IMG/VR virus record: IMGVR_UViG_3300050343_000285
Coordinates: 1 to 64,000 of that record
Length of the DNA stretch: 64,000 bases
Strand: one strand, 5' to 3'
DNA from: a virus
Shown here in pieces: positions 16,745 through 49,600 of this stretch. The position numbers and the translations under genes were made by a program. The stretch's first letter is position 1. Each line of letters begins with the position of its first letter. The notes under the pieces were generated by a model. It saw only the letters and a list, made by a program, of their open reading frames with translations, was not told the origin of the DNA and ran no database searches.

Positions 16745-18202
16745 CTATCCTGTTTGCCCCAACAGCTTCTTAGATCCTACTAGCTGCCTTAATTCTTGAA
16801 TAGCTCCATCATCAAATTCCATCTCTACCCCATACTCCCTTTTACATATCTCCAATAATTCCTCATCTGAATACCTATCGCCAAAATATTCAACTAACTT
16901 TTCCGCCTCTATTCCCCACCTAGATAGAGCATCTCTTCTGTATAAATCCCCTGACTTTTCTTGAATCATCTTTGGTTTATATAGACTTAAATGAAATCTC
17001 ATTGCTCTAATCGTTCCTAACTTATATGAAGTTCCTAACTTTTGATTAACTAGTATCGCTAGGTCCTCATCTGAATATTCTTCATAATTATCTCTAATAA
17101 CACTCATGGCCCCTGTTTTGTCGCAATTTTTGATTCTTTTTCTATTTTTATTGATTGATTTGCCTTTAATTTTTCTTTTCATATTGCTTACTTGACGAGG
17201 TGTTAACTTTAAATCAAATTTCTTATTCAAAGCTTCTGCTATTTTAATATTCTTTTTCCCATACCTCTCCTCACACTCCTGTACAAATTCCTGTATATCT
17301 TTTCTTTTCCATAAACCTGGTCTCATAGCTCTTTTGTTATTATATATATCAGGATACTTTTTCCTTAACCCTAATTTCTTTTCCCAGCTATATACTGCTG
17401 TAGACACACTCTTATATTTCCTTTGGCAATTTCTTTTCCATCCATATAATTCAGTCAACTTATCTGCATCTCCCTCTAACCTTACCCAATCGTTTTCGAA
17501 TCTTCTTGGAAAATCCCCTCTTTTATCAATACTATTTTCACTATGAGTACCAGCTTTTAAATGATCTGGATTATAACAGCATTTATTATTACATAAATGA
17601 CGTACCAATTCTGGGTATTCTCCATATTTTTCCCAATAAGCTACTCTATGCTTAGTTAAATGTTTTACTTCACCATTTATCCGTATTTGCACCTTACCAT
17701 ATCCTGATCGCTGAATAGCATTACTTTCTTTACAAGGTGTTGCATTATAAAAGTTTTTATTGCTATAACTAAAATTATTCTTATATGCCTTACTCTTGAT
17801 AGCTTTTTCTAACCATGGTTTAATTTTGTCCACACTAATTGCCACCCACTTATTTAATAAATTATCTTTCGCCCACTTATGCTGATACTCTCTTTCTTTT
17901 GACAAAATTTCATCTTCGCTAAAACGCTCTAGTATAACAAAATTCATTTGATATTTAGGATCGTTATAACACTCTAGTAATTTACTTGAAGTTTTATAGC
18001 TAGTATTCTTTATATCTCTTAGATGCTGTTGACATCTATATATAATATCCATACTACTACCAACATAAATTTTAACACTTTTAACATTCTTCTTATTAAA
18101 AACAATACCATACACTCCACAGACCTTTTCCCTTGATCCTAAATGTACTTTTTCAAACTTTTCTACTTGGTCTTGAGTTAGTCTTTTTTGTTTTTGGCTC
18201 AT
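16745..18202 (-). CDS. Homing endonuclease with GIY-YIG and HNH domains, 485 aa
   Basis: Residues about 28-120 carry a GIY-YIG nuclease domain (VYGIVF, KIYVGSS, catalytic-type Arg in YRCQQHL, Glu in REYQHKW). Residues about 150-225 carry an HNH-type domain (HRVAYWEKYG, RHLCNNKCCYNPDHL, THSEN) with paired cysteines. The rest holds at least three similar helix-turn-helix-like modules of about 35 residues (IAEALNKKFDLKLTPRQVSNMKRK; YSDEDLAILVNQKLGTSYKLGTI; YSDEELLEICKREYGVEM). Free-standing homing endonucleases cut DNA to spread their own gene. Two nuclease domains in one chain is unusual. It is separated from the early genes by the palindrome region and faces the plus-strand virion genes. Confidence 0.85.
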   Translation of the reverse strand: MSQKQKRLTQDQVEKFEKVHLGSREKVCGVYGIVFNKKNVKSVKIYVGSSMDIIYRCQQHLRDIKNTSYKTSSKLLECYNDPKYQMNFVILERFSEDEILSKEREYQHKWAKDNLLNKWVAISVDKIKPWLEKAIKSKAYKNNFSYSNKNFYNATPCKESNAIQRSGYGKVQIRINGEVKHLTKHRVAYWEKYGEYPELVRHLCNNKCCYNPDHLKAGTHSENSIDKRGDFPRRFENDWVRLEGDADKLTELYGWKRNCQRKYKSVSTAVYSWEKKLGLRKKYPDIYNNKRAMRPGLWKRKDIQEFVQECEERYGKKNIKIAEALNKKFDLKLTPRQVSNMKRKIKGKSINKNRKRIKNCDKTGAMSVIRDNYEEYSDEDLAILVNQKLGTSYKLGTIRAMRFHLSLYKPKMIQEKSGDLYRRDALSRWGIEAEKLVEYFGDRYSDEELLEICKREYGVEMEFDDGAIQELRQLVGSKKLLGQTG

Positions 18203-18326: not shown

Positions 18327-19673
18327 ATGGCTAATAATATAAGATTTAATTTTGGATCTAAAATGTGGGGCAAATTTCGCAAGGGAAATAATGACTCAAT
18401 AATGGATTATAAAGATACTACCTTAAACAAAAAAACACTTGACTATAAAAGTACAGATTATTTATTAGAAAGCAAAGATGCTAAAGTTATAGGCAATATG
18501 GATATTGATAGTAGTAAAAATTTTGCTATAGGAGGTAGAGTAGGGCAGGGTGATCGTGAACGTAGACTTGCTATAAAAAATGAGGAACTTAGTTATGATT
18601 TACAAGATAATTTAGACCCTTATACTTATCTTGGTAATAATAAAGTAGATAATGATGTTTTATTAATACTTAACTCACCGCATGATCCCGATCCTGCTGG
18701 TAAAACAATATTCAGTGGCGATCACTATACCACTTATCCAAATGATTATCCGCCACAAAACACGCCTTGTAATTGGTGCAGAATTCCAGATCCTGATAAT
18801 CCAGGTAAGTGTATATCTTATGAAAAGATGTATCCTTGTGCGAGATGCGATCCAAAAATGAAGCAATTCACGATCGAAGTAACGTATGATGCTAATAGTA
18901 TTAATAAGACATTGGCAGGAAAAACATTTACGCGTAGGGTTACGGTTGCTACCGGAGAAGAAATTAAACCTTCTCGTGCTTGCGAAAAATTTCAGCAAGA
19001 TTGCAAAAATTGTGTTACCTTTAATACTGGCAATGGAGTTGTTGAATGTGTCGGACAACCGCGAGCCAAAAACACACCATGCGATGAATGTATTGATGGG
19101 ACATACGAAGGTTGCGAAAGGCATGGTGCCTATACATGCGTAAACGGTGAATGTAAGCCTGATGATTGTGGTGGTGAGGTTTGTGATGAAACACAGTGCA
19201 TGTCATGTGAGAGTAAGAATCCGAAAAATCCAAAGCTGGGTAAACATTGTGTATTTCAATGTAAAGGATCAACTCCTGATTGCTTAGAAGTATTTACAGG
19301 CATGGGTCAGCCTAGACAATATGGTTGCGGTTGCGCAGTTGCGATGAATGGATGTCAAGATCCTGCTAAGCCTGACTTAGATACGGACTCTTGTAGCTGC
19401 CGTTGCGATGCAGAGGTAACTTTGATTGTCCCGTTGGGAAAAACACAAGCCCAGATATGCAATGAAGATACTAATAAACATTGGGATGGTGCGACATGTA
19501 GTTGCGTAACTCAGTGTGATCCACCATGTGAAGCTCCTGAAGTATGCGCTCAAGTTGAACCGGGCGTGTATTCGTGTATGTGTCCCGGAGAACCTGCTGG
19601 AGCTAGTAGTTTAAGCTCTAGTGTATGTTCTAATTATAGTCTCACTGAACTACCTTACTCGTTATTGCCTTAG
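18327..19673 (+). CDS. Cysteine-rich putative virion or adhesin protein, 448 aa
   Basis: The first 140 residues are polar and cysteine-free; residues about 145-430 hold some 45 cysteines in short EGF- or disulfide-type clusters (CNWCR, CARC, CDECIDG, CSCRC, CDPPCEAPEVC). The last residues, NYSLTELPYSLLP, resemble the tails of the 19695 and 24075 products. No signal peptide is seen, so any export or virion assembly would be by the phage. I infer a surface-exposed virion protein or host-binding decoration; it could also be a tail fibre accessory. No database family can be named. It opens the plus-strand operon. Confidence 0.65.
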   Translation: MANNIRFNFGSKMWGKFRKGNNDSIMDYKDTTLNKKTLDYKSTDYLLESKDAKVIGNMDIDSSKNFAIGGRVGQGDRERRLAIKNEELSYDLQDNLDPYTYLGNNKVDNDVLLILNSPHDPDPAGKTIFSGDHYTTYPNDYPPQNTPCNWCRIPDPDNPGKCISYEKMYPCARCDPKMKQFTIEVTYDANSINKTLAGKTFTRRVTVATGEEIKPSRACEKFQQDCKNCVTFNTGNGVVECVGQPRAKNTPCDECIDGTYEGCERHGAYTCVNGECKPDDCGGEVCDETQCMSCESKNPKNPKLGKHCVFQCKGSTPDCLEVFTGMGQPRQYGCGCAVAMNGCQDPAKPDLDTDSCSCRCDAEVTLIVPLGKTQAQICNEDTNKHWDGATCSCVTQCDPPCEAPEVCAQVEPGVYSCMCPGEPAGASSLSSSVCSNYSLTELPYSLLP

Positions 19674-19694
19674 TATTAATAAGTAGGAAGCTTC

Positions 19695-20528
19695 ATGTCA
19701 TATATTATCTATGGTTCTAGAATAGTTTCTCAGGTGTCTGTTAACAAGATACCTGAGGAGCCTATTATTAGCAACGACCCTAATGTTAAAGGGGTTAAGG
19801 GAAACGAACTATCTTCAGGCCACTCTAAAGAGACAGGTTCTATTGTGGGTCTGACAGCTGCTGCTGGAGCTTTACTAGGTTTTGCTAATATATCTAGTAT
19901 AGGAGGTCCGGGCACTTACACACCAGAATGTGAAGGCTTTGATGAACACCCTGATAATATGTGTGTAATTTGTTATAATGGTAGATGGACTCATTATGAT
20001 GAATTATATCCTTGCAGTCTGCATGCAGAAGGTACAAGGCCTTTTAATCTCATACCAGCTTGCTATGAGATAGATAATGCTGGTTGCCAAATTTGTGGTC
20101 CTTGTTTTCAGTGTAATTCTGATGGTGAGGGTAATTACAGTTGTGATGAGAGAGCAGTCTTCGATTCACTTACTGAGGAATGTTTAGAATGTCATAATAG
20201 TACTGAGTATTGTGGAAGTGCTCTTAGTCCTTATAGGTTTTTGTGTGAGGGTCAGGGTGAGATACCATTTTGTTGCAGTGGTACATGTATAGATGCTGCA
20301 AAAGAATGTTATTATTATCATGGAACATTTCCAAATGTTACTTGTGGCGTAGGATGTAAACCTTTTACTTGTGAAGTATGTGTAAATGGTTTCTGCACGT
20401 TTACTTGTGGAGAGTGTCAAAAATGTGATACAGGAGTTTGTGTACATGATAGTGACGCATATGATAATCAAGGAGAGCCATGTGGGAATTATGCTCAAAG
20501 TTTAATAAATGGTAAAATTATTCCATAA
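19695..20528 (+). CDS. Cysteine-rich putative virion protein, 277 aa
   Basis: N-terminal 80 residues are low in cysteine with a Gly/Ala-rich stretch (GLTAAAGALLGFANISSIGG); the remainder has about 35 cysteines. The segment CVICYNGRWTHYDELYPC parallels CNWCR...YEKMYPCARC in the upstream gene, so the two are distant paralogues. The end NYAQSLINGKIIP matches the tail motif of its neighbours. AGGAAG precedes the ATG. A structural or adhesin role is inferred. Confidence 0.65.
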   Translation: MSYIIYGSRIVSQVSVNKIPEEPIISNDPNVKGVKGNELSSGHSKETGSIVGLTAAAGALLGFANISSIGGPGTYTPECEGFDEHPDNMCVICYNGRWTHYDELYPCSLHAEGTRPFNLIPACYEIDNAGCQICGPCFQCNSDGEGNYSCDERAVFDSLTEECLECHNSTEYCGSALSPYRFLCEGQGEIPFCCSGTCIDAAKECYYYHGTFPNVTCGVGCKPFTCEVCVNGFCTFTCGECQKCDTGVCVHDSDAYDNQGEPCGNYAQSLINGKIIP

Positions 20529-20532
20529 ATCC

Positions 20533-20568
20533 TTGACATACTTGTTTTGACCGTTATTATATTATAAC
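20533..20568 (+). promoter_or_regulatory. Possible sigma70-like promoter
   Basis: TTGACA at 20533 with AT-rich -10 candidates (ATTATA or TATAAC). Weak. Confidence 0.3.
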
Positions 20569-20609
20569 GCGTTTGTTATTAATTCCCTATAGGATAAAGG
20601 AAATATTAC

Positions 20610-21212
20610 ATGAAATTAAATGAAAAAATTAGTATTCAGCCTCCTCCATATTCTGATAATGTAGGTAATGTTACTACCCCAGAAGCTATTGTGACAGATA
20701 CTCTAGCCCTTATTTTTGAAGACGATCCTCAGCGTAAGACGGTAAGTTGTAGGGTTCTAGATATTCCTGTTCCTGTTACTTTATACACCGGTGAAGCTTA
20801 CGATAAAGCAGGTGATTGGACTAAAGCCCAGCTAGAAGATCGATTAAAATCTTTAATGGGGGATAATCCAGCTAAGTTTTTACGAACATTTTTTCCTAAA
20901 ACTATGGAAGAGGATCCTCATGGACCGGGTACTCAATTAGCTAAGATGATTAAAACTCTAGGTATGCATATGAGTGATAGTTGTTCTTGCAGACGTCATG
21001 CCATCAAAATGAATGCTGAAGGAAACGATTGGTGTGAGCAGAACATTGACACTGTTGTTGGATGGATTGAGCAAGAAGCCAAAAATAGAGGATTACCATT
21101 CGTTAAAATGGTTGGTAAAGTAATGATTAATAGGGCTATTAAAAAGTCTAGAAAATTACTAGCTAATCAGCCAGTTCCAGAAAATGATGAAGATCTAGAT
21201 AACGAAGATTAA
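20610..21212 (+). CDS. Hypothetical protein with CxC motif, 200 aa
   Basis: The C-terminal half contains SCSCRRHAIKMNAEGNDWCEQNIDTVVGWIEQEA, a cysteine motif with a following helix that I have seen as a small conserved module in phage and some bacterial proteins without an assigned function. The N-terminal half is acidic and unrecognised. It has an AAAGGAA ribosome binding site and is followed by a good terminator at 21246-21271, so it closes the first plus-strand unit. Confidence 0.65.
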   Translation: MKLNEKISIQPPPYSDNVGNVTTPEAIVTDTLALIFEDDPQRKTVSCRVLDIPVPVTLYTGEAYDKAGDWTKAQLEDRLKSLMGDNPAKFLRTFFPKTMEEDPHGPGTQLAKMIKTLGMHMSDSCSCRRHAIKMNAEGNDWCEQNIDTVVGWIEQEAKNRGLPFVKMVGKVMINRAIKKSRKLLANQPVPENDEDLDNED

Positions 21213-21245
21213 TCTATTTTACATAAATAGAGAGATATTTTTTGA

Positions 21246-21271
21246 AGCACCTGAGAAATCGGGTGCTTTTT
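21246..21271 (+). terminator. Rho-independent terminator
   Basis: AGCACC/GGTGCT stem followed by TTTTTGTG. Confidence 0.8.
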
Positions 21272-21287
21272 GTGTATATAATTATAT
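21271..21287 (+). promoter_or_regulatory. Late-promoter-like motif
   Basis: TGTGTATATAATTATAT, directly after the terminator and 42 nt before the 21329 start. Confidence 0.5.
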
Positions 21288-21328
21288 AGCATTTGATATG
21301 TAAACGATAAAAATACAAGGGTATCACG

Positions 21329-22621
21329 ATGGCATGTTTTGAAGATGAAGCTCCAGAAGAAGAAGCACCTAAAATACCTGAATATGAAGGTAGCTTTGAG
21401 AAAAAGGAACGTATAAAAAAAGCACTTACAGGAGATATATGTTTTGCTTATGATGATGAAGCACTAGTTCAAGATGCTACAGACCCCTGTTCTTCAGAAC
21501 TTATATTTACGAAGGTAACTAATCCTGGTGAATATTCAATGAATGATGTATCGTTTTATGACAAAGCTGCTGGCGTAAAAGTTACTTCAAGATGGCAGAC
21601 AGCATCGACAAGAAAATTCGCTGTGTCATATCCTTGTAAAGCTTGTGCCAAAGGAACCGATTATGATAATCGAGCAATTGATAGATGGAAAAAAGGACTA
21701 CCTAATTCAGCATATCATCAATGCCATCGTGGCGAAGGCGAATCGGCTTATTGGGATATTTGTTGTATACAAAATCAAATACTTACAGAAGATATGAGAG
21801 GTGAAGGAATATGTGGTTATAATTCTACAGACCCTATAACATTTGATTGGGCTTGGACAAATTATAAGGGAGGTACGCCTCCACATTGCCCTGGTAGAGG
21901 AGGGGTTACTTTTATTGCTAAAACAAGGCCGAGAGTTCTATGTAAAGTAACTGCTAAGGCTTGTGTAGGCACCAAAAATGGAATTGTATGTGCGGACGGC
22001 ATAGGTAGATCTTCTAAGGCTTTCGGTGATGGAGCAGAAGCATATGGTCCGTTAGAGGGTGTAATTGAGACTGCCCCGGCAAGTGGTCCACACACATATA
22101 ATCCACAGTGTCTAGAGCTTTCAAAGCAAGATGCAGATCGACCATGTACAGGACTCGGCTTTAATAGTCGAGGAGGCTGCTATCCGTGTCCTTGGTACAA
22201 ATCTACTAAATCATGTGGATTTGGTTTTTATGAATGCAGTGCTTGGGCCCGTGTGGGCAGCGCTATGCCTGACATTCGCTGTAAGCATAATGGATTAAGT
22301 ACTTCTCCTAATTCCAGCCTTTCGTTAAAAACACTCGGAGACTTTGCTGATAAAAGTATGTTTAATGCTTTCGACATATCTTGGTGTCAAAAAGCGCAAC
22401 CAAGGAACAGTGCATTACCTTGCGCACCTGATCCTACTGTAGGTGCGATGGGGGCTTATTGTCTTACTTTAGCTGGAGCGATGAAATCAGCTGATTGGGG
22501 AGCCATAATAGACAGCGCTTATAGTCTTGCCAAGGCTGACGCTGAGAGCAAAATTTCGGGGGGATGTGACGGAAGTCCTGTCGCTACCTCTCTTGTTAGC
22601 GTAGAACTGACTTTCAAATAA
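21329..22621 (+). CDS. Putative virion protein with moderate cysteine content, 430 aa
   Basis: A 430-residue protein with about 25 cysteines, including CKACAKGTDYDNRAIDRW and GGCYPCPWYKS, and many Trp and Gly residues. The C-terminus lacks the SLLP-type tail. No family is recognised; its position between other cysteine-rich and fibre-like genes suggests a virion or adsorption component. The ATG follows a terminator plus late-type motif. Confidence 0.6.
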   Translation: MACFEDEAPEEEAPKIPEYEGSFEKKERIKKALTGDICFAYDDEALVQDATDPCSSELIFTKVTNPGEYSMNDVSFYDKAAGVKVTSRWQTASTRKFAVSYPCKACAKGTDYDNRAIDRWKKGLPNSAYHQCHRGEGESAYWDICCIQNQILTEDMRGEGICGYNSTDPITFDWAWTNYKGGTPPHCPGRGGVTFIAKTRPRVLCKVTAKACVGTKNGIVCADGIGRSSKAFGDGAEAYGPLEGVIETAPASGPHTYNPQCLELSKQDADRPCTGLGFNSRGGCYPCPWYKSTKSCGFGFYECSAWARVGSAMPDIRCKHNGLSTSPNSSLSLKTLGDFADKSMFNAFDISWCQKAQPRNSALPCAPDPTVGAMGAYCLTLAGAMKSADWGAIIDSAYSLAKADAESKISGGCDGSPVATSLVSVELTFK

Positions 22622-22667
22622 ACGGTACAGACGTAACATTATAAGAATAATATTGAAGAGAGAATAA

Positions 22668-24062
22668 ATGATATATAATAAATTTAAAGAATCAAAAAAG
22701 AAAAAAATTACTCTTCCTATTAGAGATATATATTCTCATCAAGTTAGTAATTTAACTTACAAAGGTCTTGGAGATGGTACTACGATACAATTATCTTCTA
22801 ATATTACAAATATACCTGCTACATCTTCTTTGAAGTTTGATCAAACCGGAGGCGAAGAACCTGCTGTTGATGGAGTATTTTCAATAAACAGTAATACGTC
22901 TCAAATCTTAGATTTTTCTGATGGTAATTTAGATATAAGCAGTACCAATGTTTATCATATTATCAATTTAGCTCCTAATGTTTTTGACTCTATTGATGGT
23001 GCTTACATTCCTGGCGTTGTTAGATATACAGTTACCGCTGGTAAATTAACATCTCCTACTATATTACTAAATGGTTCTATGGAGTCTGAAGGAACATTTA
23101 CTGATGACCGAGATATATATAATTATAAACAAAACCATAACAATAAAACTTACCAAGAATATGTAAATGCTAATATTTCAGTTGATTATTTTGTTGAAAG
23201 TCTTGTAGGAACCAATGTTACAGATGCTACTATTATTATAAGTGGAGAGGGATATAAATTAGGTAGTACTTTCTATATTGATCAGTTTTATAATCTATCA
23301 GATCATATATTAAATCTGCAAACTAATAAATGTGAATTAGACAATTGTAAACTGTGCTTATCTCTCAATACAGTTTCTATTAGTGGTGGCACAGGATATG
23401 TTGTAGGTGATACATTTACAGTTCCTCCTTCACCCGGAGATGATGGTGAGATAACCGTAGCATCTGTAGATAGCAGTGGGGGTATTACTTCTACTACTGT
23501 AAGTAATGTTGGTTCTGGATTTACTTCTACTCCTTCAGTATCATATAATGGTTCTACTGGTAGTTCTGCTACTATTACCATTACTGATGATTATGGCATA
23601 TGTTATAATAATACATATTTTGAAGATGATGAAACTTATATTTCTGAGCTGACTCCGGGCGGAGACATATTATATATTAGTCAGACTATAGACTCTCCTT
23701 ATAGTATTATTACAGCCAGCGGAGAAGCTTATCTAAACGGTACTTATGAGATTAAAGCTAAAGATTCTCTTGGCGCTAATTATAGCATAGATACGCCAGC
23801 AACTGTTAATATTATAACTGAAGACATACCTAATGAAGATGTTATTATCTTTAATGCTGATGATTTTGATCTTGTTGATTTAGCATTAAAAAGTTCTGGT
23901 AATAATTTATCAACATCAAATGTAAAACTAAAATTAATTATCCATACCCCTAATAGCTTTAATATATCTGACGTTTCTTTAGATTTTATCGGGGATTTCG
24001 AAGATATAGACAAACCTGATAATTCTGATTTTACTATTACCGATCAATTTACAAGAGCATAA
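22668..24062 (+). CDS. Fibre-like structural protein, 464 aa
   Basis: The centre (residues about 240-310) contains ISGGTGYVVGDTFTV, then VDSSGGITSTTVSNVGSGFTSTPSVSYNG, the Gly-rich beta repeat of form GGxGYxxGDxxTV...GSGFTxxP that is common in phage tail fibre and structural proteins. The flanks are beta-prone and rich in Ser, Thr, Asn and Asp. I infer a tail fibre or virion surface protein. It is co-directional with the cysteine-rich gene that starts 13 nt after it. Confidence 0.7.
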   Translation: MIYNKFKESKKKKITLPIRDIYSHQVSNLTYKGLGDGTTIQLSSNITNIPATSSLKFDQTGGEEPAVDGVFSINSNTSQILDFSDGNLDISSTNVYHIINLAPNVFDSIDGAYIPGVVRYTVTAGKLTSPTILLNGSMESEGTFTDDRDIYNYKQNHNNKTYQEYVNANISVDYFVESLVGTNVTDATIIISGEGYKLGSTFYIDQFYNLSDHILNLQTNKCELDNCKLCLSLNTVSISGGTGYVVGDTFTVPPSPGDDGEITVASVDSSGGITSTTVSNVGSGFTSTPSVSYNGSTGSSATITITDDYGICYNNTYFEDDETYISELTPGGDILYISQTIDSPYSIITASGEAYLNGTYEIKAKDSLGANYSIDTPATVNIITEDIPNEDVIIFNADDFDLVDLALKSSGNNLSTSNVKLKLIIHTPNSFNISDVSLDFIGDFEDIDKPDNSDFTITDQFTRA

Positions 24063-24074
24063 CCGGAGAAAATT

Positions 24075-25223
24075 ATGGTAAAATGTTGCAATGATAGTTG
24101 CTGTCCACCGATTAGTGACTATCTCTATTATCCTCCTAATGAGAAGAACGGTTGGCCAGAATGGGAAGTCGAGATACAGGCAATAGGAGACTATTTGCCG
24201 GGAAATCACAATGGGACATGCTGTCCTTGTCAATGGGATATAGATGGCAATGAATGCCCTGCTGCTACCCCTCATAGGTCTCCAGATGAAATAGTAGAGC
24301 TAACTAGACCTGGTAGTGGTGCGGTATACGAGTTCACCAGAAAGATCTGCGAATGCACTTGCGATCAAGAAAAAATTATGTCAAAAGTTAATTATGACAT
24401 GAGCGGTCCTTGCAATACAAAAGTTCCTTATGGTAAAGATGCGGATGGTAATGATATCTATCAATATAGATGTCCTGATTCTACACCTACTTTTAATAGT
24501 GCTAATTGTAGTTGTGAATGCACAGTTGAATCATGTCCTGCATCAGCTCCTACTTTCGTGAGTGAACTATGCTTGTGTCGTTGTGGCATTAGTCATCAGG
24601 CTTGCGTAGCAGAGACTACAGAAAGTGAAATATGTGCAGCTGACCCAGCAACTCCTGATTTTAATGGAGCTACATGTAGTTGTGTTTGCAATAAAAGTCA
24701 AGCTGATTGTGCCGCAGATGAAACATTTGATGATAGTATATGTGATTGTGTGTGCTCTAAAGTGTGTGATGATCCAGCACTTCCTGATTTAACTGATGAC
24801 TGCGAATGTGTGTGTAATGTTACAGCAGATGATTGTATGGGTAGTGATGAGTATGATAGTGCTACATGTAGTTGTATCCCTTGTAATCTTCATTGTCCTG
24901 GATGTCAGACATATGCTGATGATGCATGCGAATGCGTAGGATGCGAAAAGTGTAATGAAACTCAGTATTGTTTTGGAGATCCTGAAACATGCATTTGTTG
25001 CGGTCCTGGTACAGTAGAGTGCAATGGAGGTTGCGTTAATAATGACTGTGGGGGAGGTAAAACATTTAATTCGAGCTCTTGTCAGTGCGAATGTGATGGT
25101 GATAAAGTATTGTGCAATGAGACATGTTACGATCCTTGTCCAGAAGGAGAAGGCTTTGACCCTGATTGCGAATGTAGCTCTGCTTATGCTGAGTCTCTAT
25201 TGCATTCTTCCCTCTTACCATAA
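24075..25223 (+). CDS. Cysteine-rich repeat protein, 382 aa
   Basis: About 70 cysteines. Residues about 145-290 contain repeated units of the form PxFNxATCSCVC (PTFNSANCSCEC, PTFVSELCLCRC, PDFNGATCSCVC, ETFDDSICDCVC, PDLTDDCECVC), the clearest tandem arrangement of the three cysteine-rich proteins. It ends CSSAYAESLLHSSLLP, sharing the tail motif. In a phage, such disulfide-type repeats suggest a rigid extracellular virion fibre or receptor-binding decoration; this is inference. Confidence 0.65.
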   Translation: MVKCCNDSCCPPISDYLYYPPNEKNGWPEWEVEIQAIGDYLPGNHNGTCCPCQWDIDGNECPAATPHRSPDEIVELTRPGSGAVYEFTRKICECTCDQEKIMSKVNYDMSGPCNTKVPYGKDADGNDIYQYRCPDSTPTFNSANCSCECTVESCPASAPTFVSELCLCRCGISHQACVAETTESEICAADPATPDFNGATCSCVCNKSQADCAADETFDDSICDCVCSKVCDDPALPDLTDDCECVCNVTADDCMGSDEYDSATCSCIPCNLHCPGCQTYADDACECVGCEKCNETQYCFGDPETCICCGPGTVECNGGCVNNDCGGGKTFNSSSCQCECDGDKVLCNETCYDPCPEGEGFDPDCECSSAYAESLLHSSLLP

Positions 25224-25511: not shown

Positions 25512-25700
25512 ATGAAAAATAAAAAATACCGTAATGTAGCTCATTCTACCATTAAAGTCATTGCTTCTGAGAATATCGATATATCTCATGATCTTAATAA
25601 TAATGAGCATAAAAGTATAGCACAATTATATGAGGAAGAAAATTCCAAAGAAGAAAATCCTACAGAAGAAAACATCAAAAAAAACGAATCAGAAGAATGA
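25512..25700 (+). CDS. Small acidic ORF, possible N-terminus of the sigma-like factor, 62 aa
   Basis: Encodes MKNKKYRNVAHSTIKVIASENID and a Glu-rich end (EENSKEENPTEENIKKNESEE). It overlaps the next gene by 71 nt; removing one base from the run of eight A at about 25676-25683 joins the two frames into one protein. The Lys-rich start of the next gene looks like the out-of-frame reading of this Glu-rich stretch, so the two are probably one gene split by an insertion or joined by frameshifting. Confidence 0.5.
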   Translation: MKNKKYRNVAHSTIKVIASENIDISHDLNNNEHKSIAQLYEEENSKEENPTEENIKKNESEE

Positions 25701-26289
25701 AGTAGTATCAGAAGAAGAGTTTTTAGCTGTTTTAGAAAACATAAGTAAAAGACTATGCTATAAATTTAAATTTGCATATCATGATATTAATGATATGAAG
25801 CAACAAGCTGCTATTTTTGCTATAGAAGGCTTAGAAAAATATGATTACTCTAGACCATTAGAGAACTTTTTATGGACACATGTTAGGAATAGATTATTTA
25901 ATTATAAGCGAGATAACTATCAAAGGCCGGATAAGCCATGTTTAACATGTCCTTTATATAACATTAATTCATCAGATGGTAATGACTGTAATGAATTTAA
26001 TGATAAGTTTAATTGCCACGCTTATAGATCTTGGTTTCAACGTAATAATAATAAAAAAGGTATTATTCAACCATCTTACATAGATAAGATAGATCCAGCT
26101 AGTAACCAAGATTTTGTTGACAATATATCTGATCAGCAATTAATAGATTTTATAGAAGAAAATTTACCAGTTAAATATAGAAGCACCTACCTTAAGTTAA
26201 AATATGGTCAAAAGGTAGTTAAAAATGAAAAAGTGAAATTGCAGAATTTTATTAAAAAGAAACTCATACCTAAGTATAAAAATGAATAA
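25630..26289 (+). CDS. Sigma-like transcription factor, 219 aa
   Basis: Residues about 35-95 resemble sigma region 2 (DINDMKQQAAIFAIEGLEKYDYSRPLENFLWTHVRNRLFNYKRDNYQ), which contacts RNA polymerase and the -10 element. A four-cysteine insert follows (CLTCPLY...C...C), probably zinc binding, and the C-terminus is basic, in place of a clear region 4. Phages use such factors to switch the host polymerase to late genes. It starts the packaging operon, overlapping the small terminase by 8 nt. The true N-terminus may lie in the preceding frame at 25512. Confidence 0.75.
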   Translation: MRKKIPKKKILQKKTSKKTNQKNEVVSEEEFLAVLENISKRLCYKFKFAYHDINDMKQQAAIFAIEGLEKYDYSRPLENFLWTHVRNRLFNYKRDNYQRPDKPCLTCPLYNINSSDGNDCNEFNDKFNCHAYRSWFQRNNNKKGIIQPSYIDKIDPASNQDFVDNISDQQLIDFIEENLPVKYRSTYLKLKYGQKVVKNEKVKLQNFIKKKLIPKYKNE

Positions 26290-28655: not shown

Positions 28656-29121
28656 ACCAGATAAGAAATATAGTTTTAACATTATTATAGATACCAGAGA
28701 ACAAAAACCTTGGGCTTTTGCTGGTTGTGATACTATTAATAGAAAGCTAGATACAGGAGATTATAGTATTGAGGGGTTAGAAGAGCTTTTATGCATAGAG
28801 AGAAAAAATAGCGTAAGCGAAATAGCTAATAATATTTCTGAGGCTAGATTTAAAGCTGAGATACTTAGAATGAATGATTACTTATATAAGTTTATATTAC
28901 TAGAGTTTAGTTTACAGGATGTTTTAAAATACCCTATTGGTTCTAATGTTCCTAGACATATGTGGTCTAAAATTAAAATTAGACCTGCTTACATATTAAA
29001 GTACTTAACAGAACTACAAATTAAACATAATATAAATGTAGTATTTTGTGATAACCCAGAAGCTGCTAACCAAATGGCTTTTTCTATTTTTAAGAGAGTG
29101 AACGAATTACATGGTAAGTAA
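28645..29121 (+). CDS. ERCC4/XPF-type nuclease domain protein, 158 aa
   Basis: Contains IIIDTREQKPW, then LDTGDYSIEGLEELLCIERKNS: the GDxxERK-type core of XPF/ERCC4 nucleases, which cut branched DNA with a divalent metal. The usual acidic residue three positions after ERK is replaced (ERKNSVSE), so catalysis is likely but not certain. Small single-domain forms occur in phages. It overlaps the large terminase start by 11 nt; a role in resolving DNA before packaging would fit. Confidence 0.8.
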   Translation: MTHKPDKKYSFNIIIDTREQKPWAFAGCDTINRKLDTGDYSIEGLEELLCIERKNSVSEIANNISEARFKAEILRMNDYLYKFILLEFSLQDVLKYPIGSNVPRHMWSKIKIRPAYILKYLTELQIKHNINVVFCDNPEAANQMAFSIFKRVNELHGK

Positions 29122-31142
29122 CAGCTATTTAGATAACGCATGGTTAAATATAGGCGATATAGATAAGATCAACATAGATAAAAATGTTATGATCAATCGC
29201 TCTGAAACAGATATAGAGAATCCAGATAGACATTTAGTTAATATAATTAAAGACCCAGCTAATTTTTCCATGACTGCAAAACTTTTAATGGATATAGAAT
29301 TGCATCCCATTCAAGCAGCTATTTTAGAGGAATTTTGGGATAGGCCATTCCCAATGTTTATTGCTAGTCGTGGATTTGGTAAATCTTTCTTACTTGAGTC
29401 TATATTGCATACTTTAAAATGCATTTTTGTTCCTGGTAGTAAGATCGTTGTAGTTGGTGCTGCTTTCAGACAGAGTAAAATTATTTTTGAATACATGGAA
29501 AATATGTGGCGCACTAGCCCTATAATACGTAGTATTTTTAATGGTAATGACGATGGTCCTAGAAGAGATGTAGATAGATGTACTATGCGATTATGGAGAT
29601 AGTTGGACTATTGCTATCCCTCTTGGTGATGGTAGTAAGATTAGAGGCTTAAGAGCTCATATTATTATTGCTGATGAATTTGCGTCTATTTCTCCAGATA
29701 GTATATGAGACTGTTGTATGCTGGTTTTGCTGCTGTGTCTGCTAGATCCTATGGGTAATGTTAAAGCAGAAGCTAAAAAAGAACTAATGAAAGAACTTGG
29801 CATTTGGAACGAAGAGCTAGAGTCTTTACAATATCGGAAAAGTAATCAAGCTATCATTGCAGGTACTGCTGATTATAGTTTCAAACACTTCGCTCGGTAT
29901 TGGGAGAGATATAGATCTATTATACATAGTAAAGGAGATAAGGAAAAGTTAGGTAAAATATTCCAAGGAGAAGTCCCTAATAATTTTAATTGGCAAGATT
30001 ATAGCGTTGTTAGAGTTCCATATGAATTAATACCTAAAGGCTTTATGGATGATAGACAGGTTGCTAGAGCAAGAGCTACGATACATAGTGGTATTTACAA
30101 TATGGAATATGCAGCTTGTTTTACTAAAGATAGTAGTGGATTTTTTCGTAGAAGCTTAGTTGAGAGTTGTGTAGCTAATGTTAAAAACCCTATTATTATT
30201 AATGAAGAACCTATGATTTTTGATGCTAGGGTAAAGGGAGATCCTGATAAAAAATATGTTTATGGTATTGACCCAGCGAGCGAACAGGATAACTTTTGTA
30301 TAGTAGTTATAGAATTACACCCTAATCATTCGAGAATAGTATATGTCTGGACTACCAACAGAACTAATTTTAAGAAGAGACAAAAAACAGGATTAGTAGA
30401 AGAGAATGATTTTTATGGCTTTTGCGCTAGAAAAATTAGAGAATTAATGACTGTATTTCCATGCGAAAGAATAGGCATTGACGCACAGGGAGGCGGTATA
30501 GCTATTGAGGAAGCTTTACACGATAATAATAAGCTAAAGGAAAATGAAGTTCCTATATGGCCTATTATAGATGGAAAAAAGCATAAAGATAGTGATGATA
30601 AACCAGGATTACATATTTTAGAGTTAGTGCAATTTGCTAGATCTGATTGGACCAGTCATGCTAATCATGGACTTAGAAAAGATTTCGAAGATAAAGTCTT
30701 ACTATTTCCATCATTTGATAATCTAACACTAGGTTTAGCTATGGAGAAAGATGCTCAGAATGTTATGGAAACTGATCTAGAGAATGTTTATGATACTCTA
30801 GGAGAGTGTATTTTAGAAATAGAAGAACTAAAAAACGAACTAACAACTATAGTAATGAGTCAAACTAGCAATAGTTCTGGAGCTAGAGAAAAATGGGATA
30901 CCCCAGATAATAAGGGAGCAGGAGCCAAAAGAGGTAAATTAAGGAAAGATAGATACAGCTCACTAGTTATAGCCAATTCTATAGCTAGATCTATTAGCAG
31001 AGCAGACGCTCCTGTTGAGTATGATGTTATCGGAGGTGTAGATGGTAGATATAAAGACGATAAAGAAAGTCTCTATAAAGGTCCAGCATGGTTTACAAAT
31101 GATGCTAATAATGATATATATCTTGGTATTTACAAAAAATAG
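29111..31142 (+). CDS. terL: Large terminase subunit, frame-broken four times
   Basis: The packaging motor ATPase and nuclease. Walker A at residues about 89-98 (ASRGFGKSFL), Walker B in IIIADEFASIS, nuclease Asp residues in YGIDPASEQDN and RIGIDAQGGG. As given, the open parts are 29111-29602 and 29718-31142. The missing middle reads well if one base is removed at each of four points near 29591, 29701, 29718 and 29746, restoring YGDSWTIAIPLGDG, ISPDIYETVVAGF and SASPMGNV. Full length is then about 675 residues. Either the assembly has four insertions here or the gene is inactive. Confidence 0.85.
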
Positions 31143-31200: not shown

Positions 31201-33390
31201 ATGTCCAAAAAATATCCGAAAAGTGATGCTATAGAAAACGCAGAGATCGAAAAAGAAGAACTATACGTAACATGGGGAGAAGATTTAAAATCTAAACAAC
31301 AAGCTCTAGAAGAATCTTCTAAGTCTATCAGTGAGTTTGAAGGGATACATAAAACCACTGGTTATGCTAGATATAATAGGGATTTTTCTAATTTATCAGA
31401 CAATACTTCTGGTAGGCCAGGACTAACCAGATCTGATTATGATTATTTTAGACCTAACGAGGCAGTGCCCGTTAAGCTAAAAAATATTATTAAGACAGCA
31501 GATACTATATATCAAAGAGTTGGTCTTGTTAAGAATGTTATTGATTTAATGGGGGATTTTGGTTCCCAAGGAATTAGACTGTCTCACAGAAATAAAAGAA
31601 TAGAAAGATTTTATAGAAATTGGTTTAGAAAAGTTAATGGTTTAGATAGAAGTGAAAGATTTCTTAATAATTTATACAGAGTTGGCAATGTTGTTATCAA
31701 TAAGCAGACAGCTAAAATTAACAAAAAAATATCTGATGAATTATACAAGGCGAATGCTAAAGCTGATATAGACCCATCTTTAGAAGAAATTAAAGTTGAA
31801 AGAAAAGAGATTCCGTGGAGATATACTTTTATAGATCCTTTTTATGTTGATGTTTTGGGAGAGAGTTTGTCTTCTTTTGTTGGTAAAAAACAATATGCTA
31901 TATCAATGCCTTCTCAATTAAGGAAAACAATTAATAGCCCTAAGAATAGTGTTGAGAAACAAATAGTTGCAGAATTACCAGAAACTATTTTATTAGCAGC
32001 TAAAAATAAAACACTATACCCTTTAGAAGTTGAAAAAACTTTAGTATTCCATTATAAAAAAGATGACTGGCAAAATTGGGCTTATCCTATGATATATGCT
32101 ATCATGGATGATATTAATATTATTGAAAAACTTAAACTTGCAGATTTAGCAGCCTTAGATGGCGCTATTTCTAATATTAGAATTTTTAAGTTAGGTAATT
32201 TAGAGCATAAGATTGCACCAACAAAAGCGGCAGCAGCAAAGTTATCAAATATTTTACAAAATAATGTTGGTGGTGGCACTATGGATTTAATTTGGGGTCC
32301 AGACATTGAATTATTAGAAAGTAAAACTAATGTTCATCAATTCTTAGGAGAGGCAAAATATACGCCACATCTAAATAGTGTTTATGCTGGTCTTGGCATC
32401 CCCCCTACTCTTACGGGTACATATGGAGCTGCTGGAACTACTAATAATTTCATTAGTTTAAAAACATTAACTCAAAGATTAGAGTATGGAAGACAAGTCT
32501 TAATGCAGTTTTGGCAGCAAGAAATTTATGCAGTTCAAAAAGCTATGGGTTTCAGATATCCAGCCAAAATAGAATTTGACAGGATGGACCTTAGTAATGA
32601 AGAAGCAGAAAAAGCCTTATTAATACAACTTGCTGACAGAAACTTAGTTAGTGAGGAATTAATACAAACTAGATTTGGTCTTGATTCTGATATGGAGCAA
32701 AGTAGAATTAGCAGAGAAAGCAAGGAAAGAAAGTCTAATAAGAGACCTACTAAGTCTGGACCATATCATGACGCAGAATTCCTAAACAGTCTGAAAAAAA
32801 TAGCTTTACAGGCTGGAATGGCTACTCCTAGCGAGGTGGGCTTAGATCTTAATAAAAAGAAACGAGGAGAAAAAAATCTTTATGAACTAAAAAATAACAC
32901 AGAAAAGACTAACACAACGAAGTTGGTTAAAGATTCTCCGGAATCTTTACCTGGCGTCCCTGGAGAAGGCCGTCCAAAAATGTCAAAAGATACTGATAAA
33001 CGAAAAACTAAAGAATTTAGACCAAGAACTGGAGCTACTCTAGACATATGGGCGCAAGACGCTCAGGAAAAAATAGCGGGAATAATTAATCCTCTGATAT
33101 TAGAATTTTATGATAAGAAAAATTTGAGATCTTTGTCTAATGGAGAATCTAAAAATTTGGAATTCATAAAAACCCAAGCTTTATTTTCATTAAGTCCTTT
33201 TGCAAAAATTGACTCAGATAAAATTTCTTCTAATATAAAAAATATTTCAAAGAATACCAAAACGTTAATATCGGGGTATGAATACTGGGTAAGATCTATA
33301 TCTAATAATTTACGAAGAAACTTGACAACAGAAGAGCAAAAATTGGTTAAATCTATTTACTACTCATCTATTCACACGGAAGAGAATTAA
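31201..33390 (+). CDS. Portal protein, 729 aa
   Basis: Length, position after the large terminase and portal-type sequence (IDPFYVDVL, then GIPPTLTGTYGAAGTTNNFIS and LEYGRQVLMQFWQQEI) identify the portal, the dodecameric ring through which DNA enters and leaves the head. The C-terminal 200 residues are charged and may be a species-specific ext. It is followed after 2 nt by the protease/scaffold gene. Confidence 0.8.
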   Translation: MSKKYPKSDAIENAEIEKEELYVTWGEDLKSKQQALEESSKSISEFEGIHKTTGYARYNRDFSNLSDNTSGRPGLTRSDYDYFRPNEAVPVKLKNIIKTADTIYQRVGLVKNVIDLMGDFGSQGIRLSHRNKRIERFYRNWFRKVNGLDRSERFLNNLYRVGNVVINKQTAKINKKISDELYKANAKADIDPSLEEIKVERKEIPWRYTFIDPFYVDVLGESLSSFVGKKQYAISMPSQLRKTINSPKNSVEKQIVAELPETILLAAKNKTLYPLEVEKTLVFHYKKDDWQNWAYPMIYAIMDDINIIEKLKLADLAALDGAISNIRIFKLGNLEHKIAPTKAAAAKLSNILQNNVGGGTMDLIWGPDIELLESKTNVHQFLGEAKYTPHLNSVYAGLGIPPTLTGTYGAAGTTNNFISLKTLTQRLEYGRQVLMQFWQQEIYAVQKAMGFRYPAKIEFDRMDLSNEEAEKALLIQLADRNLVSEELIQTRFGLDSDMEQSRISRESKERKSNKRPTKSGPYHDAEFLNSLKKIALQAGMATPSEVGLDLNKKKRGEKNLYELKNNTEKTNTTKLVKDSPESLPGVPGEGRPKMSKDTDKRKTKEFRPRTGATLDIWAQDAQEKIAGIINPLILEFYDKKNLRSLSNGESKNLEFIKTQALFSLSPFAKIDSDKISSNIKNISKNTKTLISGYEYWVRSISNNLRRNLTTEEQKLVKSIYYSSIHTEEN

Positions 33391-43600: not shown

Positions 43601-46600
43601 ATGGCAGCGGCATTCAATCTCACAGCACAAATTAATCTTAGAGGCCCTAGAAATACTAGAGCAATTGCTTCTCAAATGAGGAAACAATTATCTGGTGTTA
43701 AAGTTAAAGTAGATCTTGATTTAAAAGGAGCATCTGCTAAAAACGTAGCTAATATTAACAAACAGCTACAAGGTTTATCTAGAAATGCAGCATTAGCTCA
43801 TAAGAATGTAGCTAGACTAAATCAAAGCGTAGTTCAGTTAGGTGCAGGACTAAAAGGAATGGGTGCTGGCTCAGTTCAGTCTATTGCTAAGGTGCAGAAG
43901 CAAGTTAATAATGCTGGTAAATCTATAGATACTGCTACTTCACAGATACAAGAATTTGGTAAGCAATCAGGCTTGGCTATTAGAAGATTTGCTGCGTTTA
44001 GTGCTGTTACAGGTGTTGTGTATGGTTTAACCAATGCTATTAATAGTGCTTATAAAGAATTCGTACAATTTGATAGACAATTAATTAGATTAAGTCAAGT
44101 TACTGGTACTAGTGTTGCTGGGCTCCAAGGTATTACTAAAGAGATAACAAGTCTTTCTACTAACTTAGGGGTAGCTTCTACAGACTTAATGCAAATTTCA
44201 GTAACTTTAGCTCAGGCTGGTTTAAGTGCTCAGGAAGCTAAAACAGCATTAGAAGCTCTGGCTAAATCTTCACTAGCTCCTTCTTTTGATAATCTGAACG
44301 ATACTGTTGAGGGTAGTATCGCTTTAATGAAACAGTTTAGCATATCTTCTACGGACCTTGAGGCAGCTTTAGGTAGTGTTAATGCTGTTGCTGCTAGTTT
44401 TGCTGTTGAAGCTGGAGATATTATTAAAGCTATTCAGCGTACTGGTGGCGTGTTTGCTAGCGCTAGTAAAGGAGTAAGTACAGGTACTCAGGCTTTGAAT
44501 GAATTTGTTGCGCTTTTTACTAGTGTTAGATCAACTACTCGTGAAGGTGCAGAGACTATCGCTACTGGTCTGCGAACTATTTTCACTAGGATTCAGAGAG
44601 GTTCTACAATAGAATCTTTAAAAGAATTTGGTATTACGTTAACAGATTTAGAAGGTAAATTTGTAGGGCCGTTTGAAGCAGTTAAAAGATTAAGCCAAGG
44701 TCTTAGTGGTCTTGATCCTAGAGATTTAAGGTTTGGACAGATTGTTGAAGAGCTTGGTGGTTTCCGTCAGATTGGTAAAGTTATTCCTTTAATTCAACAG
44801 TTTGCTACTGCTCAAAAAGCTTTAGGCGTAGCTCAATCTGGGCAAGGCAGTTTAAGTAAGGCCGCTATACAAGCGCAAGCTTCATTAGCTGTGCAGTTTG
44901 AAAAAACTAGGCAATCTTTTGTGGGTTTAATTAGAGAGATTGGAGATAGTACAACATTTAGGACTATTGCTACGGTTAGTTTAACAACCGCTAATGCTTT
45001 TATTAGTCTTGCAGGTGCTTTGAAACCATTACTTCCTATGCTTACAGCTCTTACTGCTATTAAAGGAGCTTCTATCCTGAGTGAATTTGGTAGTGGCTTT
45101 CTTGGTGGAGTAGGTAAGTCTGGTGGCGGTGGAGGTGGAGGTGGTCTTGGAGGTCTTCTTGGTGGAGGTAAAGGGCCAAAGGGTTCTGGTGGTGGTAGAA
45201 AAGGTAGTCCTGCTAGCTTAAAAGCCAATACAGCTGCCTTAGCAGCAAATACATCTACTATGGCAGAGTTGATTGCTTCAATGCAAAATTTAAACTCTAT
45301 GATTGCTGGTATGTCGGGAGGATCTACTAAGGCTTTTGCTAGTGGTGGTTTAGTGCCTGGTAGTGGTAACAGAGATACTGTATCAGCTAAGCTGACTCCT
45401 GGTGAATATGTTATTCGCAAGAAAGCTGTAGAAAAAATAGGAGCTGATAAGTTAAGTAAATTAAATCGTGGAGGCAGGATTCAAAAGTTTGTTACAGGTG
45501 GTTCTGTAGAAGAATTAGCTGAGCAAAGAGGAGTAAGCGCAACAGATATTGTAGCTCAAGAGATACAGAATGCTAAATCGATTAAGAATGTTAAAGAGCT
45601 TGCGGGTATAGACAATAGAAGCAAATTTAGTAAAAGCCTAAATAATATATTAAGAAAAGGAGTTTATGACGATCCAAGTAATCCAGAAGCACTTGCTACA
45701 GCTATAGATGTGATCAATAAAGTTTTAGCTAAAAAAGCTGGAGATGCCGAAAAGCTAGAAGGAGAAAAGGCGGTTGCTCCATCATACGCTCTAGTAGGAT
45801 TACGAGGTAAGCCCGCAGACCACTTCATGGAAGCTGAAGATGGTACGATGGTTAATCTTGTAGGTCGCAGAGCCAAATTTGGAAGAAGTTATGATAAACA
45901 AATGAGAGAAGGTTTTGTAGGTACAGTTCAGGATGTTGCTGGGTCAATGGCTCAAAAAATTGGCGGGGGAACGAAAGTTAAAATACCAGATAAAAAAGGA
46001 TTGGCAAGAGCAGGTTTATACAATGCTATAGGAGCTTATCTTGAAGCAGCAGTAGCTTCTATTGGCGCTCCTTACGATAAAGATCAAAGTAATGATCCTT
46101 TAGACTTTGAAAAGGGACTAGGTCCTGCTGCTAGTATGTTTGGCGTGCCATCAGATATGCCTGCTGATACTACTAGAACAGTTTTCGGCAAAGGTAAAAG
46201 TCCTGCAAAATTCCTTGATCAAGTAAATAGATATAGAAAAAATAGAATGGCTACAGGAGGTTCTGTAGAAGATACAGTTCCCGCATTACTTACTCCGGGA
46301 GAATACGTCCTTAATAAAAAAGCTGCTCAAAAATTAGGCTCTCAAAAACTAGATAAGCTAAATAAAGCAGATAAAATTCAAGGCTTTAATAAGGGTGGTG
46401 CTGTCGGTTTTGTTCAAAGATTTGCTGCTGGAGGCGGCGTACAAGCTGATCAAGCTGCTTATGTTGCTAGAATGGCTAAGAAATTAGGAATGACTGTTGA
46501 AAAATATGAGAAAAGTATTAGAAACAGAATTCTTAATCAAGCTGAAAAACAAGCTACTAGTAAAACTGGAGCCCAAACAGATCTTCTAAACGTTCTTGTG

Positions 46601-49600
46601 AAAAATATTGAATCTATTGGCGATGCTGATGTAGAAAATCTGGTAAGAGGACAAGCTCAAGAATTAGTAGAGAAAATTTATGGTGGAGCAGATCAAATTG
46701 ATCCTGATGTTTTAAGCGATTCAATAGACGATCTTGTTGCTTCAATGAAGAGTGGATTATCTATAGAAGAAATTAAGGCTAGTTCAAGCCAATGGGCTGA
46801 AACATTAGATATGCAAATTAATGCATCTGGTGAAGTTGCTAAAGCTCAAGAAAATATGGCAAAGAAATTAGGTTTTCTTAGTTCTGGAATGAAAACTAAA
46901 GATATTGACATTAGAGCCAGACAATCGCTCAATGAAGGTAAGTTTGGATCTTTTGATAAAATGAATTTACGAAATGCTCAAACCAATATAGAGTCTGGAT
47001 TTGGTAGCATTTTAGATAACATCGGTCAGAAACTTAGTACTGCAAATATACCCGGTATGAATAAGCTTTCTAAAGCTTTTCCTGATGCAGCAAATAAGAT
47101 TACTTCTATTGGCGATAAAATGGGTGGCCTAACTGGTATTTTAGGATCAGGAGCAACTATATTATCTACTCAATTACCTAAGATGTTTGATAGCTTTGAC
47201 AAGTTGACAGGTTCTGTTTCAGATCATAGCGAGACTCTTGCTGGAGTTACTGGAGCTTTAAGTTCTGGTGGTAGTTTTGGTATGAGTGGAGCTATATTAG
47301 GACAACAAGCATTCGGCAGACGGGGCGCTGCTATTGGTGGAGTAGCTGGAATGGCTGGTGGTGCGATTAGTGGCTTTATTAAAGAGTCTACAGCTAGAGA
47401 GCTAGAGAATGCTATGAGGGGCGTAACAGCTGCGTCTAGTAATCTTGATAAAACATTAGGTCGTTTAGATATGGCTCAAACTATAGAAGAAAGACAAGAG
47501 CTTGTTCAACAACTTAATAGAGATTATGAAAATCTTAATCAAGCTTTAAATCAATCAGCACAAGAAATAGAAAAAAATAGAATTTGGAATGCTTTAAGTA
47601 GTGGTTTAGAAGGATTTATGTCATCGCTTACTACTGTTATAGGCTTCATGGCTGCGGCTAAGATAAGTGCTGCTGCATCTTCATTTATACCTAGAGGAAA
47701 AGCAAAAGGCGGCTCTATTGGTTTTAATACTGGAGGTATGGTTCCTGTTAAATTAGCTAGTGGAGAAGGAGTATTTACACCACCATTACCGACATCTATT
47801 GGTAATCTTAAAAAGATGAATCAAGCGGATAGAAACGGTTATAAACCAAATTTTGCTGGTGGCATGGGGATTGTTCCTGGTTCAGGTAGCGGGGAAGTTG
47901 ATAATTACGATACTATGTTGCCAGAAGGTAGTTATGTTATTCGTGCCAAGGCTATGAAAAGCATGCAGGCTGCAACAGGGGGTAGAATTGGTAGTAGTTC
48001 TGTAGGAGTTAAGGGCTATGCTAGTGGTGGAGGTGTTCAAGGATATTTCTTGGGTGGTTTGATAAGACCACTTATAAAGGTAGGCTTTAGAACTATCGGT
48101 CCTTATCTAACTAAAGCTTTAGTACAAGGTGTGAAAACTACAGGTCTCATTGCTGCGGTAAATCTTATACCGGCGGCTATACAAGGTGCTTTGGGTTTCC
48201 TCGATAATACAGCTACTGATCAGCAATTAGCAGCACAAGTAGCTAGTTTAGAACAACTGAGAAAACTTGTAGATATACAGACCAACTTTGTTGTTAAAGA
48301 TCAGAAATCTTCTCAAAGATTATTAAGCCAGATGGATCCTATTGAAAGAGCTAATCTTACTACTGAACAAAGACAGGCGATGTATGCTAGTCCTACATCA
48401 GCTAGTGGTGATTTTAATGAATTAAATATTTTAGGTTCTAGACAAGCTAGAGCTAAGCTAAGTGGTGCTGGTTTTGATGTAGGTCAAGGACAAGGCATTC
48501 AAGAATATTTAGATAGTTTAAATAGTAATGATAGGCAGGCAGCTGAAGAACTTGTTGTTGAAGCTAATCAAGAATTAGCAAAAAGAATTTATATAGAAGC
48601 TAGGCAAAGAGAGGGTATAGAACTATCTACAGCTAGAAAAGAATTTGAAAGTTCTGATCCTGAAACTCAAACAAAAGTTAAGAAACGTATTGATGAAGAG
48701 TTAGGTAGTCAAAATAGACGTATAGCTTTAGCTAGACGTATGATGGTTGTTAATAGACAATTACAAAAATTCACATTAAGTTTAACAGATGTTATGAATA
48801 GACTTGGTAGCACTATGCAAAGAGTCACATCTGAGATTGTTTCTAGCACAAATAGATTATCACAATTATCTGGTGAGTTTACTGGAGAAACTGTTGGTGC
48901 AGCTAATCCATCAGAAAAAATGGCTCAAACATTATCTAATATTACAGCATACTCTGCTCAGGAATTAGCTCGTGTGGTCGATGGTGTTAATAGTAGTTTA
49001 GGTAATACGAAAGAAACTAGACAGATGGGAGATCTTATTAAAGGTCTTCAAATTATACAAAAAGAATTGCCATTAATTTTAAGAGACACTGCTGAAGGTG
49101 GAGACTTAGACGCTGGTGCAGAAAGTAGTATTAGAGATAGATTAGATACTATGTTTGCGGGTGTTGATATTGGTAACAATATAAAGAAAAATCTGGAAGA
49201 TAGTATTATCAACTATATAACAGATTCTACAGGCAACAGACAGGGAATGAGTTATGAAGACTTAGCTAATAATATTGAAGGACTTAAAGAGTTAGATGCC
49301 GCAGCAGAAAAAGCTAGATCTACCTTTGAAGATTATGCTAATAAACAAATAGAAACAAATAGACTTTTAGGTGGTGTTTCCAATCAATTAGCTAGCCAAT
49401 TAGATAAATTAAAAGACAATGTTATTAAAGTTCGAGATATTCAGTTACAAAGCGCTTTACAACTAGCTGATAAATTTAATAAGACTATAAGTTTATCCGA
49501 TTTAAATTCTCCTTTTAATAATTCTGTAAAAGGACTTACAGGAGGTACAACAGACGCGGCTGAAATAGGTAGAATAATAGCAGAAGCAATTGAACAAAAA

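Follow-up and report, generated by a model that had tools for sequence, protein, structure and literature searches.

Hypervariable cysteine-rich proteins with a common C-terminal tail, a candidate docking tag, in large uncultured tailed phages

Three cysteine-rich proteins encoded in the 64,000-base window, which opens a 194,787-base virus record (IMG/VR IMGVR_UViG_3300050343_000285), end in a C-terminal tail that is conserved at the protein level in related phages; the bodies carrying this tail are hypervariable, nearly always hold an even number of cysteines and are encoded in a paired gene arrangement. We see about an even chance that they are disulfide-stiffened, probably elongated surface proteins, which would be anchored to the phage particle by the common tag. 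The source is a large uncultured marine phage, whose host is probably a member of Planctomycetota.

The genes follow one another in the order 18327, 19695, 20610, 21329, 22668, 24075 and the sigma-like gene at 25630, with the following features:

18327..19673 (+), Cys-rich protein 1, 448 aa, 36 Cys (8.0%), a Cys-rich body followed by the tail
18327..18767 (+), Cys-free N-terminal region of protein 1 (residues 1-147), starting IRFNFGSKMW
19629..19670 (+), C-terminal tail of protein 1, SNYSLTELPYSLLP
19695..20528 (+), Cys-rich protein 2, 277 aa, 28 Cys (10.1%)
19695..19928 (+), Cys-free N-terminal region of protein 2, starting IIYGSRIV, with a hydrophobic stretch
20484..20525 (+), C-terminal tail of protein 2, GNYAQSLINGKIIP
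20610..21212 (+), conserved protein, 200 aa, constant neighbour of the Cys-rich genes, 63-78% identity in tagged relatives
21329..22621 (+), tailless protein, 430 aa, 24 Cys (5.6%), no tail
22668..24062 (+), Cys-poor protein, 464 aa, directly upstream of the CXCXC gene at 24075
24075..25223 (+), Cys-rich protein 3, 382 aa, 58 Cys (15.2%), tandem C-x-C-x-C units
25056..25094 (+), marginal match of protein 3 to the Pfam CXCXC repeat PF03128, 17.5 bits (cut-off 15)
25176..25220 (+), C-terminal tail of protein 3, SSAYAESLLHSSLLP
25630..26289 (+), sigma-factor-like gene (phrog_1740, weak), just downstream of the module

The three Cys-rich ORFs are thus present where a sequence-only reading had placed them, and their C-terminal endings are as it quoted. 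Its range of 35-70 cysteines holds for the products of 18327 and 24075 and is too high for that of 19695, and the form it gave for the tail, Y-x-x-[ST]-L-x4-[IL][IL]P, describes 19695 and 24075 and fails in 18327, where E takes the place of L (2/3). The form common to all three tails is Y-x-x-[ST]-x-[LI]-x-x-x-[IL][IL]-P. The module is flanked by a GIY-YIG/HNH endonuclease-like gene (16745-18202, minus strand), and the same border is seen in L102 (6419-7936) and L103 (13335-14840), with ORFs of ~500 aa.

Tagged high-Cys proteins amount to 18 distinct sequences, three in the window and 15 in related uncultured phages (four in G001, two in G004/G005, one in L014, three in G006, one in G007/G008 and four in G020, the contig of L119). 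The sequence-only reading had named missing tail conservation in relatives, together with absence from virions, as evidence against it; as to conservation, every high-Cys module protein (18/18, from 7 phage lineages and with divergent bodies) ends in [LIVMFT][LIVME]-P. Position -1 is Pro in all 18, position -2 is Leu, Ile or Val in 17/18 and Glu in one, and position -3 is Leu, Ile, Phe, Met or Thr in all 18, with a single Thr. In addition, position -4 is often Asp or Ser, position -7 is hydrophobic in 16/18, mostly Leu, and Tyr is frequent near position -12. The 13-17 residues after the last cysteine are Cys-free in all 18, though cysteine makes up 8-16% of each protein.

From composition, such an ending would be expected by chance in ~0.4% of proteins. 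Counted over loci, [LIVMF][LIVM]P closes 14/28 Cys-rich ORFs vs 0/792 other distinct ORFs of at least 150 aa, and a larger survey of ORFs of at least 100 aa with a slightly wider pattern gave 15/25 vs 4/2032, the background ORFs of both surveys including six-frame non-genes. Synonymous codons differ at the conserved tail positions, and it is thus the peptide rather than the DNA on which selection acts. A nucleotide-level cause, such as shared 3' DNA or overlap with the ribosome site of the next gene, is ruled out by the same codon variation. A short C-terminal motif common to dissimilar proteins and kept in relatives is characteristic of docking or sorting tags, and it was found here in 18/18. 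The earlier observation is therefore partly confirmed, being real and stronger than first stated once the small corrections above are made, and its docking or sorting interpretation is partly supported at the level of sequence.

The 18 proteins are not independent of each other. They fall into 7 groups at blastp E<1e-6, all belong to one phage clade and may share ancestry, since 17/18 link at E<1e-3 even when the tail is removed. This linkage agrees with an unlikely alternative, in which the tail would be an ancestral intramolecular cap, its helix plus LLP packing on the protein's own last Cys-rich unit with no external partner, and the structure model of the 24075 product does show a helix (residues 370-377) where the repeat region ends. 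However, the tail stays constant across the seven groups, unlike the last Cys-rich unit, and the last five residues of the model are of low confidence, with pLDDT <50 at the end of the tail, too low to depict docking.

The rest of that model (mean pLDDT 54.7) consists of successive short hairpins, mostly with pLDDT of about 60-79 in residues 200-370. The cysteine number is even in 17/18 tagged proteins (binomial p 7e-5 if these are taken as independent). Together, the even counts and the hairpin units of the model favour paired cysteines, presumably as disulfides, with metal binding also compatible. According to the latter reading, which we consider very improbable, the cysteine clusters would bind zinc, copper or iron in a metallothionein-like manner and the tail would bring the stored metal to the particle or an enzyme. 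The 162 CxC, 107 CxxC and 27 CC motifs of the 18 proteins are as it would predict; however, the even counts, a His content of only 1.0% and the modelled hairpins fit disulfide-rich extracellular repeats better, although the argument from even counts is not decisive because Cys4 sites also give even counts. A fold search with the 24075 model returned no match at E<=0.001 and none at Z>=5, which does not prove the fold new; its matches were generic disulfide-rich chains, with EGF/TNFR-like ones at Z<3 only. The phage also encodes a thioredoxin-like protein that has a CPYC site and whose N-terminus is hydrophobic (record 167989-168462, i.e. L090:9989-10462, minus strand), relatives of which occur in 10/19 other records searched.

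The Cys-rich proteins seem to work with a second part, which is either fused to them or encoded next to them. G001 and G020 have, directly before several Cys-rich genes, a separate small ORF (~100-140 aa) that is Cys-free and starts like ..[YR]G[GS]xI (a short motif chosen by eye and then pattern-checked). The products of 18327 and 19695 and the two long G006 proteins have a Cys-free part with a similar start as the N-terminal region of the same chain, that of 18327 resembling the start of the separate small ORFs adjoining the relatives' Cys-rich genes. This fused or split arrangement suggests that the N-terminal and Cys-rich parts act together, and the tail is not simply the interface of the pair, because it is kept both where the N-terminal region is fused and where it is split off. 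The 24075 group has another kind of partner, a Cys-poor protein of ~380-460 aa whose gene lies immediately upstream; G004/G005 carry this pair in duplicate. The central domain of the window's copy, 22668 (about residues 184-311), was modelled with high confidence and weakly resembles a tail-sheath domain (profile E 0.0088; Foldseek rank 1, E 0.03), such as those of T4 gp18 and the Klebsiella phage KP1-variant tail sheath, but the match covers only ~70 residues of the 464-aa protein and the remainder is unlike a sheath protein.

In comparison with the structural genes at 31.2-43.5 kb, which are 53-97% identical in tagged relatives, the Cys-rich bodies are only 0-51% identical. By tblastn against five tagged relatives, 18327 and 21329 had no match in any, whereas the products of 19695 and 24075, where matched, were 24-51% and 28-32% identical, respectively; the 51% identity belongs to the G001 homologue of 19695. 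Likewise, no similarity was detectable between the 21329 product and the ORFs (319-504 aa) that relatives have in its place. The relative L028, whose 31201 protein is 75% identical, has a 20610 homologue, yet no Cys-rich ORF in the stretch read, and the module is therefore accessory, which weighs against the anchored-protein reading. Bodies that vary over an end that does not, the presence of several copies in each genome, and their gain and loss among relatives would nevertheless fit swappable surface proteins with a common anchor. In the untagged sister clade (G021-G025), large Cys-rich proteins adjoin the 20610 homologue within the capsid and structural gene cluster, which supports a structural role.

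Cys-rich proteins without the tail are found elsewhere too. In L121, L122, L123 and L124, large Cys-rich or Cys-containing proteins of the sister clade lie beside the 20610 homologue and lack the tail. Tailless examples, a further point against the anchored-protein reading, are also encoded in the window's own genome: L088:5803-10812 (record 125803-130812, minus strand) is a 1,669-aa Thr/Pro-repeat protein with a granulin-like CC-rich region near the C-terminus and no LLP tail, and L087:15074-19999 (record 116074-120999, minus strand) is a frame of at least 1,641 aa with a laminin-G-like domain, Thr/Pro linkers and 56 Cys, to which a frame in G001 is similar in its ending. When a receptor for the tail was sought by presence and absence, the 60063-60998 protein stood out, with 71-75% conservation among tagged genomes against 34% or less in those without the tag; since this pattern also follows overall relatedness, the protein is no more than a lead.

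Apart from the marginal CXCXC repeat, the Cys-rich proteins matched no family in the databases searched. The three window proteins matched no PHROGs family at E<=0.1, NCBIfam gave nothing relevant to the Cys-rich proteins, annotated phages and plasmids gave no match, and no paper on Cys-rich phage proteins with CXCXC turned up in a literature search. Scanning for further family members by alignment was unsuccessful, as conserved stretches are lacking, and single-protein scans brought no new phage lineage. The CXCXC repeat PF03128 occurs in the C-terminal region of VEGF-C and in Balbiani ring protein 3. The 24075 product and L014 match it and share its C-x-C-x-C units spaced by Asp/Pro-containing loops, but the likeness is confined to the 24075 group (18327 and 19695 gave no match), the scores are marginal and the whole proteins are unrelated; to our knowledge, no C-terminal tag is known in CXCXC repeat proteins. 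Another comparison is with the cargo-loading peptides of encapsulins, C-terminal tags that dock to an HK97-fold shell. They too are short, extreme C-terminal peptides common to otherwise different proteins, with shell docking as we propose here, whereas the phage tail has no evident sequence resemblance to them and sits on proteins that are Cys-rich and probably external.

The window also contains genes from which the virus is recognized as a tailed phage:

29111-31142, large terminase (phrog_2), split into two ORFs of 163 and 474 aa
35592-36593, major-capsid-like protein, distantly similar to the major head protein of Bacillus phage G (21% identity, E 6e-6)
43601-52399, tape-measure protein, 2,932 aa

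The terminase is intact in a near-identical contig (L108:15898-17922), whose mismatches to the window are bunched in one ~400-base patch, and the split probably reflects a mistake in assembly or reads, or else a local mosaic. The 31201-33390 protein, at the portal position, has 132 relatives in IMG/VR contigs, the best 80 of the 132 being kept, and none in annotated phage records. Except for the distant capsid match to phage G, comparison with 50,697 annotated phage records brought up no relative of the tested proteins of this phage group.

Another alternative, which we regard as highly unlikely, is that the tail is a type-I-like C-terminal export signal, the proteins being factors that are secreted or released instead of virion parts. 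Some type I substrates have C-termini with an acidic residue and hydrophobic residues at the extreme end, as have the half of the 18 proteins in which Asp at position -4 precedes the hydrophobic residues, and no obvious N-terminal Sec signal is present in the translations. Nevertheless, Pro is the last residue without exception, cysteines are usually few in type I substrates, and the genes adjoin sigma-like and packaging or structural genes.

The host is likely a member of Planctomycetota, judging from gene families on the record. A DUF1559/N-methyl pseudopilin gene (record 163888-164853, i.e. L090:5888-6853, minus strand) is present in the window's record (G000), G004 and G005 and absent from 14/14 control genomes, and it lies ~3 kb from the CPYC thioredoxin-like gene in both G000 and G005, as well as in the tagged relative G004. 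Because G004 and G005, both tagged, have it as well, it seems to be a gene of the phage rather than an assembly accident. DUF1501 (frame broken) and DUF1553 genes are found at the record end (L091:15579-17785, minus strand) and may be host flank, transduced DNA or phage genes. The DUF1559, DUF1501 and DUF1553 families are hallmarks of Planctomycetota. The one match in GTDB genomes, from a Chitinophagia MAG, is a more distant relative. A planctomycete envelope has been described as Pro/Cys-rich and disulfide-stabilised (PMC3035269), to which the phage proteins may be likened by description, the host itself being inferred.

In the arrangement that we consider here, the tag would have Leu at about -7 in a short stretch and then an acidic residue or Ser, two hydrophobic residues and Pro-COOH, and it would fit a single conserved site of one virion (or assembly) protein common to all of them. 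The exposed Cys-rich bodies, candidate adhesins, could then be swapped with the anchor unchanged, and the second half of the unit would be the Cys-free N-terminal region or the separate small or ~400-aa Cys-poor neighbour. The disulfides might close after lysis or with the help of the phage CPYC thioredoxin-like protein. More tentatively, the tail may represent an undescribed C-terminal sorting signal of tailed phages, by which one virion site could present changing, hypervariable, disulfide-rich surface proteins suited to the disulfide-rich envelope of Planctomycetota. A constant anchor with a variable head is the way in which phages change what they touch. If the proposal is true, disulfide-rich external proteins of this kind would be unusual among tailed phages, and a portable tag would offer a way into a widespread group of large uncultured phages: their surface proteins could be predicted from sequence, and their particles might be used for protein display.
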